A DNA stretch of 64,000 nt from assembly GCA_026745465.1 (NCBI GenBank), contig JACYXH010000022.1, positions 92,001 to 156,000 on the forward strand, read 5' to 3'. The stretch comes from Lota lota. Lineage: Eukaryota; Chordata; Actinopteri; Gadiformes; Lotidae. Below the pieces are notes generated by a model. It searched no databases, was not told the origin of the DNA, and was given only the letters and a program-made list of their open reading frames with translations. Positions 216 through 60,526 of the stretch are shown here, one piece after another; the first letter of the stretch is position 1; every line of letters begins with the position of its first letter. The translations under genes were made by a program, and so were the position numbers.

Positions 216-854
216 CAACATCCATCAGAGAGACAGATTCTTCACAACAGTCTTCTTAACCAGTGTGTGTGTGTGTGTTTGGTTTATTCATGCATGAAAT
301 GTTTTTCATTTTGTGAAGATTTACATCAGTCTTCCTGGTCCAGTTTGTTCCTTAAATCACGTTCTAGAAAGAACAAATCCCCATCACCTTTGGGTACAAC
401 ACGAAGAACAAGGAGCAATATGGCATCATGATGTACTACAACAACCGACTCATCAAGGCATATCATCGTGTCGGCTGTCAGCTAAAGGTGAGAGTGTGCT
501 TCTGAGCGATATTTGAAAATGTGTAGTAGTTCTTATTATTCATACTTCATTGGTGTTTGTTGTGGTAAACGTTGGTGTATGTGCTCCTAAAGGCTAAGAG
601 CAGGCTAGGCATCGGAGTCATTGGTGTGATTGTGTGTAATTTTCTGGAACCGACTCACAACAAACAGGACTTCAACGACACCAATACGTACAAGTAAGGC
701 CTGTACTGTAATGGTGTTCAAATCATGATCTCACAATCATGAATTCGTTTTTGACAGTTATCGTACTTTGTTTAGGTGTTGGTATACTACTTACTGTTAC
801 TATTTCGGTATTTAGCAGCCATTTTTCCACAAAGCAACAAGCAGTGAATTCAGA

Positions 855-990
855 TGTCTTCATGAGGTGGAAGAGGTTAGGATCTGGCTCTAGATTGCCT
901 ACATGTAGACTGTCTTTATTGGGGTTTGAGCCCAGAACCTCTGGTCAACCACCCTAACCACTACACTGTCCCTCTTATCAAGACACAAAT
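855..990 (-). repeat. tRNA-derived SINE fragment in intron 9 (copy A)
   Basis: Minus strand reads AGGGACAGTGTAGTGGTTAG ... GGTTCTGGGCTCAAACCCC (A-box and B-box like). Paralogous copies lie at 11865-11995 (B), 31235-31365 (C), 34012-34140 (C') and 56895-57025 (D). Its presence in C' fixes where that fragment begins. Confidence 0.65.
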
Positions 991-57300: not shown

Positions 57301-60300
57301 TGTGATACTTGTGGTTTTGTCAAGTTGAGCATCCCAACGTTGTCTACTGTCACTGGAGGACGTGGCTGATAATTGGAGTGGTTCTGTGTTCCTGTGTTCT
57401 ACAGAAAATGCCCGGATCAGAGCTGGGTCCAGTGTGACGAGTGTCAGCAGTGGCGGAGGCTGCCGGATGGAATTAACACGGAGAAACTTCCTGAAGAGTG
57501 GTTCTGCTACATGAACCCCGACCCTCAGTTCAGGTTAGGATAGCTAATGGTTCTGGGTTTGATCCCCGATGTGGACACACTGCTAGTAGGCCACTTGACC
57601 AAGAGGTCTTTGGGCATCAAGATGCCTTAATGCCAATCTATATGAATTAACTATAAGTCGCTCTGGATAAAAGCATCTACTGAAATACTAAATGAGCATA
57701 GACATTTTCAGCAACATGTGCCTTCCTTGAAATGAAGGAATAGTTTAAATTCATATGCATCCACCACTACAGTACACACAAGCCACCTGTACATTTAGAT
57801 TGGTAATTAAAAATGTATGTTAAAATATATCTTTATTGTTCCTTAAAAATCCAAGAGGATTATTAGCATATTGAATGATGAATCCAGATTGAAATAATTA
57901 GCTCTAGGGGACATAATCATCAGTATAACATTTATATTGTTATACATTCACATCTCATCTCATTCAGGAGCTGTGAGACGAAGGAAGAGCCAGAGGACTC
58001 TGATTCTGAGCAGCCCACAAACCTGAAGACCTATAAAATACAGTAGGCTCCATATTTAGCATTACTTCTTCAGTTAGCCTGGTAAACTAACTCGACTTTT
58101 ATGTTTTTTCTCAGTCAAAATCAAAGGTTATTCAGAATTCAGAATAGTACAGGTCACCTGTATGTGGTCTTATAGGGACATCCAGAACACTGTACATTGA
58201 CTGACCTTGGCGTTTCTGACAATTGTATTGTTTATGTTAACAGGGAGAGGGAGGACAAAAAGAGACAAGATGAGATGAAAGAATTAAAAAAGGTTAAGAA
58301 AATGTCTTCAGATATATATATTATACTGTATGTACTATTGTTTGTATAATAAATATGAATTAAAATGCTTGATTATATTTTGTACCATAATCGTAATATT
58401 GATGAATGTTTATTACATACTTATGTCATAAAAGCACTATAGGTAGATTGAAAAAAGTTTGTTGAGAAAAAGTGGTAGCCTTTTCTCAACAAACTTGTGT
58501 GTGGTGTGCATGAAGTTGTTCCTAGTTCTTCCTGACATTTACAGAAATACTAATTATAATTCATGTATTGAATTAAATATTGAATTATATTACATGTAAA
58601 TAGTGCTTCTACGTTAAGACTAAATCCATCTTTTGATCATGACAACCAGAGCTCCACCCCGAAAACATCACAGACACCAAGAGAGGGCGCCTCTGGTAAA
58701 ATGTGTTTTTATATTATCTGGGTGGTAAATACTTAATTATTACGTCATCTGTTTTCTTCACGTTCTGTTCTTTGTTTTGTTCTGTTTAACAGTTGGTACA
58801 ATATTTAATATAATATTTCTCTAGCACACAGTGTGTCCACCAGCAGCAGTCATCCGGTAATAACGGATGAAGTCTCTCTGTCAAGAAACCCCTCAAGGTA
58901 TGACTGCCTTTTACCCCCCAATGATGTTTCACTTTATCATCTTTGAAAATATCACAAAATCACGTTAATTGTCAATTTCTTTCTTTTTACATACAGTATC
59001 TCACAAAAGTGAGTACACCCCTCACATTTTTGTAAATATTTGAGTACATCTTTTTCATGACAACACTGAAGAAATGACACTTTGCTACAATGTAAAGTAG
59101 TGAGTGTACAGCTTGTATAAACGTGTAAATTTGCTGTCCCCTCTAAATAACTCAACACACAGCCATTAAAGTCTAAACCGCTGGCAACAAAAGTGAGGCC
59201 AACCATGACGAGGCCTGTTCTGAGTGGAACCTGTCCTGTTAAACTGTATGGTCTTGGCCACCGTGCTGCAGCTCAGTTTCAGGGTCTTGGCAATCTTCTT
59301 ACAGCCCAGGCCATCTTTATGTAGAGCAACAATTCTTTTTTTCAGATCCTCAGAGAGTTCTTTGCCATGAGGTGGCATGTTGAACTTCCAGTGACCAGTA
59401 TGAGGGAGTGTGAGAGCGATGACACCAAATTTAACACACCTGCTCCCCATTCACACCTGAGACCTTGTAACACTAACGAGTCACATGACACCGGGGAGGG
59501 AAAATGGCTAATTGGGCCCAATTTGGACATTTTCACTTAGGGGTGTACTCACTTTTGTTCCCAGCGGTTTAGACATTAATGGCTGTGTGTTGAGTTATTT
59601 TGAGGGGACAGCAAATTTACACGGTTATACAAGCTGTACACTCACTACTTTACATTGTAGCTAAGTGTCATTTCTTCAGTGTTGTCACATGAAAAGATAT
59701 ACTCAAATATTTACAAAAATGTGAGGGGTGTACTCACTTTTGTGAGATACTGTAATTAATTTGTGAACTGCAGGAGCAAGAGGCCGCAGCCTATGACTCC
59801 ACAAAGCAAATCAAAAATACCAAAGAGAAATAGTGAAGAGAGAAAGTCAGATACACCTACGGGCCTGAGAAGCCATGCAGCCTTGGAGGCGAGATCGACA
59901 GGAAATGATGCCACGGAGGAGATGAGCGACACAAGCGCCCAGATGCAAGGACCACAAGGGAACGATGAGGAGGAGATGAACCTCAGCACAGCGGCTAACG
60001 ATGGAGCTCAAGTGATGGAGGAGGGAATGATTAGCATCATCCAGGCCCAGGAACAGCAAGACCAGCTCATAGAGCTCCTGCAGTCTGTGGGCAACGAGAG
60101 AGACCCCTTGAAAGAGAAGGCAGAGGAGCTGAGCAGAGAAAAAGAGGCATTAGAGGCGGAGAAAGCCAGCATTTCTGCCGAGTGTGAAAAGAAAAAGTTA
60201 TGGTTAGTAACACACACACACACACACACACACACACACACACACACACACACACACACACACACACACACACACACACACACACACACACACACACACA

Positions 60301-60526
60301 GATCTAATATAATTAAATGCACAATTGGAATCGACACAGTATTTATAAGACTATGTTTGTCTCTTGTCAACTCTGTTAAAGTCTGGTGGAGCTCCGAAAA
60401 AACGTGGGACGCCTTTTGTTGTTGCAACAAGTCCCGTTGGAACTGGACCAAGTTGACTACGAGTGCGGCGTCATTGACGAGATATTTGAACAGTTCCTCA
60501 GTAAATATGTTCCTAGTTCACACTAG
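45305..60526 (+). CDS. morc3: MORC3-like copy D: most complete MORC family CW-type zinc finger ATPase
   Basis: Exons 45305-45346, 50865-50937, 51200-51320, 51444-51668, 52086-52232, 55089-55236, 55650-55778, 56278-56397, 56499-56599, 57051-57158, 57405-57533, 57968-58042, 58244-58292, 58650-58695, 58825-58897, 59774-60202, 60382-60526 (TAG). Sum 2160 nt: 719 residues plus stop, with every junction in phase. Human MORC3 is longer (over 900 residues). Domains: ATPase (about 1-290), S5-like (about 290-400), CW (about 440-485), linker, coiled coil, C-terminus. Exon 14 is missing (in-frame loss) and exon 17 is fused to a coiled-coil mini-exon. The N-box reads DNAKNAKK: four residues lost and the Tyr-Asp replaced, but AELI and DNA are kept. 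Exon 2 reads LNSEFLYTN where other copies have LNPKFLHTN. Known for the family: nuclear, PML-body associated, binds methylated H3K4, represses chromatin and limits DNA viruses and IFNB1. Function here is inferred from homology. Confidence 0.88.
45347..50864. other. Copy D intron 1
   Basis: 5.5 kb, homologous to C intron 1 with two longer stretches: 46073-46596, an LTR-like repeat (TGTCAG...CTGACA, AATAAATCC near its end), and 47180-47940, which I do not recognise. The reverse solo LTR (49664-49945) and minus-strand LINE relic (about 49950-50500) match those in C. The TCTAATTA-rich segment is 48690-49000. No host exon seen. Confidence 0.62.
46073..46596 (+). mobile_element. Putative solo LTR (TGTCAG...CTGACA) in copy D intron 1
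   Basis: 524 bp starting TGTCAGCTCC and ending CCCTTCCTGACA, with CCTGCCTGCCTG tracts and AATAAATCCTTTAGACTT close to the 3' end, the layout of fish Gypsy-type LTRs. Copy C has only its first 330 bp or so (from about 21090), cut by a deletion. Open frames through it (138 codons at 46089) are not supported as a gene. No clear target duplication. Confidence 0.5.
50865..52232 (+). CDS. morc3: Copy D exons 2-5: GHKL ATPase core with shortened N-box loop
   Basis: G1 box [12 protein letters not shown] and lid [15 protein letters not shown] are intact, as is [10 protein letters not shown]. Exon 3 is 121 nt against 133 in [13 protein letters not shown] has become DNAKNAKK. The Mg-ligand Asn and the catalytic Glu (exon 2) remain, but the loop that follows is shorter and basic, which might alter ATP turnover. 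Confidence 0.85.
52233..55088. repeat. Copy D intron 5: SINE-rich
   Basis: Homologous to B intron 5 but longer. 53355-53490 contains three successive tRNA A-box-like heads (GTGCTCTACA.YGGTAGAGC) about 36 bp apart before a single B-box (GGTTCGAATCCGACC). 53575-53795 is a fragment related to the solo LTR family. 53860-54060 and 54820-54920 are further SINE heads/bodies. No coding exon seen. Confidence 0.6.
57405..58042 (+). CDS. morc3: Copy D CW-type zinc finger exons
   Basis: [20 protein letters not shown] and [14 protein letters not shown] (exon 11) plus [16 protein letters not shown] (exon 12). All four zinc-binding Cys and the Trp (SWVQC) are present. WVQC matches the usual vertebrate form better than WAQC in B and C'. 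Intron 11 holds the same SINE fragment as B and C' (57545-57700). Confidence 0.88.
58455..58496. repeat. Perfect 16-bp hairpin at the site of lost exon 14 in D
   Basis: AAGTTTGTTGAGAAAA (58455-58470) and its exact reverse complement (58481-58496), 10-nt spacer. In B and C' only the left arm exists, followed by intron and exon 14; in D the right arm is joined directly to sequence just past exon 14 (GTGTGTGGTGTGCATG). Confidence 0.85.
58994..59752 (-). mobile_element. Tc1/mariner deletion derivative in copy D intron 16
   Basis: 759 bp flanked by TA (58992-58993, 59753-59754), starting CAGTATCTCACAAAAGTGAG and ending with its inverse. Terminal inverted repeats are about 195 bp. Minus strand 59166-59450 encodes only the N-terminal helix-turn-helix of a Tc1-like transposase ([38 protein letters not shown]); the catalytic DDE domain is deleted. 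B has the empty site. Confidence 0.88.
59774..60526 (+). CDS. morc3: Copy D coiled-coil exon (fused) and intact C-terminal exon
   Basis: Exon 17 (59774-60202) runs from [15 protein letters not shown] through AREK-less coiled coil ([20 protein letters not shown]) straight into [11 protein letters not shown], a unit that is a separate exon in the other copies; the intron between has been lost with part of exon 17. Last exon 60382-60526 (145 nt) encodes [40 protein letters not shown]..., ending TAG. A, C and C' carry a shortened, frame-altered version of this last exon. Confidence 0.78.
60210..60300. repeat. (AC)n microsatellite in the last intron of copy D
   Basis: About 45 AC units, starting 7 nt after the exon 17 donor (TG|GTTAGT). 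Apparent Thr-His frames are artefacts. Confidence 0.97.

Follow-up and report, generated by a model that had tools for sequence, protein, structure and literature searches.

Two recurrent builds in a tandem array of MORC3-like units of the fish Lota lota

A stretch of 64,000 nucleotides from Lota lota (bases 92001-156000 of contig JACYXH010000022.1, here C22), hereafter the window, was found to lie inside a tandem array of ten MORC3-like units, all in a single orientation. Two recurrent builds were encountered: a long one with a CW zinc finger and a short one without it. ATPase halves were mixed among builds, and some of their codons displayed signs of diversifying selection. We consider it rather probable that the array represents an antiviral family which evolves by birth and death and encodes self-guarding MORC3 proteins, in two builds, derived from one amplified locus. 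A first-pass annotation of the window had described an array of five units with different domain sets and an arms-race look; its observation was confirmed and its interpretation partly supported. All five units were recovered, the last one ending exactly at 60526, and the array was real; it comprised, however, ten units on C22 and eight on the probably allelic contig C23. No report of a MORC3 array appeared among the papers listed in literature searches, which covered few subscription papers and preprints.

Coordinates of units are window positions unless prefixed by C22 or C23. Units were numbered u1 to u10 on C22 and v1 to v8 on C23; those of the window are A (u4), B (u5), C (u6), the half unit C' (h6) and D (u7). 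Searches covered the 575-Mb assembly (867 contigs) and were run exon by exon, so that all counts are lower bounds. The 92-residue ATPase exon displayed 18 matches in the assembly, ten on C22 and eight on C23, all on the + strand, and this search revealed no copy beyond these two contigs. Exon-wise assembly searches likewise detected no separate single-copy MORC3. The first exon was matched 17 times (nine on C22, eight on C23) and the zf-CW profile 15 times (six on C22, six on C23 and three weaker matches elsewhere), while 53 of the 54 genome-wide exon matches of Morc6_S5 were located on C22 or C23. Profile PF13589 yielded seven matches, five of them on other contigs, and was uninformative for exons split by introns.

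The units of C22 followed the order short, long, short, short, long, short plus half, long, long, short, long. On C23, where build types were inferred from match coordinates, the order read long, short, short, long, long, long, short plus half, long. Copies without CW thus numbered five out of ten on C22 and, by coordinates, three out of eight on C23.

C22 (227,100 bases) spans a Dopey-family gene, the MORC3-like array and CHAF1B. Matches to Dopey_N preceded the array at C22:13284-13607 and C22:15617-15949 (1.2e-22 and 5.7e-05; two of four pieces), and CHAF1B exons followed it at 218.8-223.7 kb (three of five pieces matched in Pfam; CAF1B/HIR1 propeller 4.1e-21, CAF-1 p60 C-terminus 9.7e-07). 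Both flanking families of the DOP1B-MORC3-CHAF1B synteny were therefore present on one contig, as judged by Pfam on pieces. Human MORC3 is a single gene between DOP1B and CHAF1B, and the Dopey gene encountered here was taken as DOP1B rather than DOP1A. Because it is flanked by these two families, as human MORC3 is, the array corresponds to the expanded MORC3 locus. Exactly 5,000 N at C22:25001-30000, between the Dopey exons and the array, may represent a gap or a withheld stretch.

Sequence comparison also pointed to MORC3. The core of u8, a long unit outside the window and the only copy compared, aligned with human MORC3 (6o1e) across ATPase, S5 and CW (2e-193); MORC4 (7k7t, 6e-151) and MORC2 (about 4e-65), which share the same ATPase/S5 fold by sequence, were matched more weakly. 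The array resembles vertebrate MORC3 in sequence, in ATPase-S5-CW order and in flanking genes, and differs from it by its 8-10 tandem copies, by the absence of CW from half of the C22 copies and by an ATPase half with a ratio of nonsynonymous to synonymous substitution rates (dN/dS) near 1.

Pfam searches on 20 unspliced open reading frames gave one near-threshold ATPase exon, a BEL/Pao peptidase and otherwise weak hits, and genes were therefore spliced by homology. Spliced D then displayed Morc6_S5 (3.4e-42), zf-CW (2.4e-17) and HATPase_c_3 (1.5e-14); spliced C displayed Morc6_S5 (1.4e-37) and HATPase_c_3, and zf-CW was not found in it with Pfam. The CW finger is encoded by exons e10 (129 bases) and e11 (75 bases); its fourth zinc cysteine presumably falls in e11. 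Both exons were present in u2, B, D, u8, u10 and fragment C', whereas u1, u3, A, C and u9 displayed no match to either at E 0.05. As both are of phase 2-2, their joint loss keeps the reading frame. The first-pass view of modular loss, with a differing part lost per copy to give five domain sets, was not borne out: all five short C22 copies lacked this same phase-matched pair, and what the window contained besides the two builds was a 3' fragment (C') and a copy devoid of exon 1 (B). Lacking CW, the short copies do not qualify as standard MORC3 and, by their sequence, are best described as MORC3-derived paralogs.

The four ATPase motifs (here taken as ENAxD-type, DxGxG, GxxGxGxK and GTR) were kept in 15 of 18 copies. 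The exceptions were D, where motif I was shortened, v3, where motif II read DNGNR, and v4, a frameshifted copy whose motif IV was left unread. A family-wide loss of motif I was considered from D and rejected, as other C22 copies display NAYD. The motif I loop was two residues shorter in u1, u3, u6, v2 and v7. Tails were variable, with repeated coiled-coil exons, repeated e12 exons and a 72-base repeat; the coiled coil itself gave only weak coil-like Pfam hits below cut-off, and a full short tail was modelled for C only.

Two introns looked U12-type, in agreement with the splice consensus of this class. The intron between e3 and e4 (51671-52078 in D) displayed AT-AC ends, ATATCCTTT ... TTCCTTGAC, and this model fits the ten C22 copies; a GT donor was tried and left three copies without one, after which the AT-AC model was adopted. 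The intron between e6 and e7 (55779-56277 in D) was of the GT-AG kind, GTATCCTTT, with the same sites in ten C22 copies.

Members of the array are probably real genes, as already proposed in the first-pass annotation for C and D. The frame was open through e1 to e9 in all ten C22 cores and further to e11 in the five long units, and nine of the ten units displayed a first exon. On C23, seven of eight ATPase halves were open, v4 carrying in e4 the only frameshift among 18 copies; the three ATPase-half introns of the same copies accumulated 180 gap runs (43+37+100). Given the minimum changes, random change would introduce 3.5 stops into the ATPase halves of 17 copies (v4 excluded) and 5.0 into the S5 halves of 10 copies; both sets were free of stops (P 0.028 and 0.006, respectively).

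dN/dS was compared per domain, as suggested by the first-pass annotation. The ATPase half displayed a mean of 0.97 (dN 0.0512, dS 0.0526; 18 copies, v4 without e4), dN exceeding dS in 75 of 153 pairs. The S5 half displayed 0.59, with dN above dS in four of 45 pairs (10 copies), and the CW exons were conserved (dN 0.026, dS 0.065; dN above dS in three of 15 pairs, six sequences). Across 17 copies, amino-acid variation affected 61 of the 195 codons of the ATPase half, and a further 11 codons displayed synonymous variation only. Comparison of codon models M2a and M1a over 17 copies (v4 excluded) gave a likelihood ratio test (LRT) value of 105 for this half, 16% of its codons having an omega of 7; for the S5 half (10 copies) the value was 14.5, with an omega of 4.0 for 11% of codons. 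Single exons e3 and e4 reached 30.3 and 28.3, and each contig taken alone gave 62.7 (C22, 10 copies) and 32.7 (C23, seven copies). Null simulations of e3, with 14 runs in each case, peaked at 8.1 on one tree and at 16.8 on three trees. Selected codons included alignment positions 72 and 79-82, equivalent to human residues 85 and 92-95 in the u8/6o1e alignment and located between motifs II and III, a region which we take to be the ATP-lid. Positive selection was hence detected in the ATPase half, subject to the caveats of recombination, of our own code and of intron divergence, which are weighed below.

Between short and long copies, dS amounted to 0.053 for ATPase halves and to 0.188 for S5 halves, and 229 of the 378 pairs of shared biallelic codons failed the four-gamete test. 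On account of the low short-versus-long dS and of these failures, ATPase halves are regarded as exchanged across builds; S5 halves kept the builds apart.

First exons were also associated with a strict pattern resembling the interferon-stimulated response element (ISRE), GAAANNGAAACT, which occurred eight times in C22 against 0.7 expected under a first-order Markov model. Seven of the eight sites were located at -20 or about +431 of a first-exon ATG, and six of nine C22 first exons were concerned. In the window, one such site lies on the - strand at 20302-20313, beginning 20 bases ahead of the ATG of C, with a second at 20752; another, also on the - strand, occupies 45736-45747 in intron 0 of D, at +431 from the start codon. 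Sites resembling the gamma-activated sequence (GAS) were found near the first exon of one copy out of nine.

The following is known of MORC3 from the cited papers. MORC3 is counted among the core vertebrate interferon-stimulated genes (ISGs; PMC5747502). In mammals it is described as a self-guarded restriction factor, attacked by herpes simplex virus 1 (HSV-1) ICP0 and adenovirus E4ORF3, which silences viral and retroviral DNA and the loss of which releases interferon (PMC13373173). Its CW domain autoinhibits the ATPase until relieved by histone H3, and influenza NS1 binds CW (PMC10612106). A teleost MORC3 lowers IRF3 and interferon (PMC10775979).

In the explanation favoured here, a single ancestral MORC3 between the Dopey gene and CHAF1B would have given rise, through tandem amplification probably driven by unequal exchange, to a cluster that varies in copy number and comprises about 8-10 coding units of either the long (ATPase-S5-CW-coil) or the short (ATPase-S5-coil) build. 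Because the mammalian CW holds the ATPase inactive until H3 is bound, short copies would act as ungated chromatin clamps, and long copies would be CW-gated. The former would lie beyond reach through CW, for instance for viral proteins that mimic histones, and may form dimers with the latter. The cluster would probably provide interferon-inducible silencers of viral DNA and retroelements that also serve as interferon brakes. Viral antagonists would select on the ATPase surface, the diversity of which would keep some members away from them, and loss of a member would release interferon, as expected from self-guarding. A more far-reaching version was regarded as tentative, and it is less probable than the former: a polymorphic guard-and-decoy locus comparable to the major histocompatibility complex (MHC), with haplotypes varying in copy number and content and diversifying selection on the ATPase surface. 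An attacked chromatin silencer would there release interferon, and ATPase cassettes would be shuffled between gated (CW) and ungated builds.

Amplified clusters of restriction factors include finTRIM and NLRC3 in fish and TRIM5, APOBEC3 and Mx in mammals. The present array shares with them the tandem layout, the variable copy number, selection and the exchange of sequence between copies; it differs in that each member would be a chromatin ATPase that represses interferon and is self-guarded, and in that the gating domain belongs to one build and not to the other. If the favoured explanation is true, the mode of evolution typical of host-virus conflict families extends to a chromatin ATPase. 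MORC3 genes with and without the CW gate, located at one locus and seemingly variable between alleles, would moreover allow models of gating and self-guarding to be tested with paralogs instead of mutants.

Several observations weigh against the antiviral explanation. Mean divergence K of the introns between ATPase exons (0.0825, 0.0752 and 0.0892) exceeded the synonymous value of 0.0526; overall dN therefore amounted to about 0.6 of the intron rate, and positive selection rests on the codon subset. Exons e1 and e2 alone were not significant (LRT 4.0, p 0.14). Recombination, as indicated by the four-gamete failures, inflates such tests, the value of 16.8 being reached in one of 14 null runs, and the codon models were our own code, checked only by the 28 null simulations. 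The ISRE-like sites all go back to two ancestral ones by copying, and a looser core had already given hits near first exons when the strict pattern was picked. Some copies looked damaged (frameshift in v4, motif II in v3, motif I in D, exon 1 missing from B). Finally, selection was read from the sequences themselves, and viral pressure is presumed. The arms-race look perceived in the first pass was thus retained for the selection signs and ISRE-like sites, but not for the ATPase half as a whole, with its dN/dS of about 1 and less when measured against introns. An unlikely alternative accommodates several of these points: the cluster would be mostly relaxed or decaying, with one or two working MORC3 genes and recent, neutrally drifting duplicates, and the ratio of 0.97 would reflect a lack of constraint, in line with the intron excess, the damaged copies and the orphan 3' pieces C' and C22:78952-79652. 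It is difficult to reconcile with the open state of all ten C22 cores and of seven of eight C23 ATPase halves despite 180 intron gap runs, with the ATPase motifs kept in 15 of 18 copies, with a dN below dS in CW exons and with the concentration of change in a codon subset (M2a).

Somewhat less likely still is an array serving transposon silencing or another chromatin role, in which transposons, not viruses, would select. MORC3 does silence endogenous retroviruses with Daxx/H3.3 (PMC8516933; PMC13373173), and BEL/Pao sequence was found inside the array; ISRE-like sites at first exons and the core-ISG status of MORC3 (PMC5747502) point instead to interferon control. As for an assembly artefact, in which C22 and C23 would be chimeric repeat regions with inflated copy number, such repeats are hard to assemble, C22 contains the run of 5,000 N, and both contigs stop a short way beyond the array and overlap contigs C21 and C535. 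Mean intron differences between copies nevertheless amount to 7-9%, certain pairs being almost identical; both flanks are present on both contigs, the contig ends are repeated in C21 and C535, and open frames are distinct, which makes an artefact highly improbable.

The two contigs look, from their shared left DNA and shared CHAF1B piece, like alleles, probably forming two arms of one bubble with ten and eight ATPase copies. C23 (203,497 bases) displayed the same Dopey-side and CHAF1B-side flanks as C22. Segment C22:20001-21300 recurred at C23:20387 (reported 100%), C22:1-1300 at C23:368 (99%), and the CHAF1B piece of C22 was found on C23 at 100%. C21 repeats the left end and C535 the CHAF1B side. 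Over 3,265 columns, simple repeats included, the CHAF1B-side flanks of C22 and C23 were 97.8% identical, and C535 matched C22 at 99.2%. The 11 compared pieces of C23 displayed best C22 matches of about 91-99%; divergence of the array exceeds that of the Dopey side, but shows no clear excess over that of the CHAF1B side.

All units of the window are on the + strand. Unit A (368-3389, spliced by homology) is the 3' part of a short-type gene, with e7 at 368-487, e8 at 593-693, e9 at 1016-1123 and then coiled-coil exons, the frame of the last exon being provisional. It lacked CW, as noted in the first pass; it is cut by the window edge and not truncated in the genome, its first exon and e1 to e6 lying outside the window and being open (C22:84221-91901). 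Unit B (6666-14953, likewise spliced by homology) is of the long type and runs from e1 to e11 and on to an in-frame stop, with CW exons e10 at 12384-12512 and e11 at 12947-13021, followed by e12 (13689-13780), e12b (13909-13981), e13 (14092-14620) and a last exon from 14906. Everything except exon 1 was thus found, as described earlier; in place of e0, the upstream region consists of intergenic DNA like that preceding the first exons of other copies. On C23, a first exon was also missing between v6 and v5, and the longest close match of v6 on C22 was B (94.9% over 2,630 bases).

Units C and D read from start to stop, as had been claimed. C (20322-32777) is of the short type, with 15 exons and 550 residues, among them e0 at 20322-20363, e1 at 25106-25178, e3 at 25697-25923 and e9 at 31396-31503, and a stop codon at 32775-32777. 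It combines ATPase and S5 with a coil-like tail and no CW, in agreement with the first description except that coil hits were weak. D (45305-60526) is of the long type, with 16 exons, 721 residues and consistent splice phases; it displays the ATPase with its shortened motif I, S5, CW at 57405-57533 and 57968-58042 and a coil-like tail, and its last exon, judged by eye, seems to resemble that of human MORC3.

Unit C' (34164-41769), delimited by exon matches, is a long-type 3' half that starts only at e9 and begins 1.4 kb past the stop codon of C. It contains e9 (34164-34271), CW exons e10 (34529-34657) and e11 (35091-35165), two copies of e12, e13 and a remnant of e14. The exon search of the array revealed no ATPase exons in it, so that its description as CW without ATPase stood. 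Because the start phase of its e9 equals the end phase of e8 in C, C' may represent an alternative 3' end of C, both forming one composite gene with two possible ends. A fragment of a BEL/Pao retrotransposon peptidase (Peptidase_A17, 3.3e-24) lies at 39513-40043, between e12 and e13 of C'. A 72-base tandem repeat occupies 40497-40644, within the e13 coding region of C', and the e13 match of u8 shows similar repeats.

Two further pieces were encountered outside the window. An extra first exon is located at C23:81597-81704; the ATPase exon that follows it, that of v4, is preceded by another first exon at a shorter distance. An orphan long-type pair of e13 and e14, with a stop in e14, follows u3 at C22:78952-79652 and is possibly the detached tail of u2.

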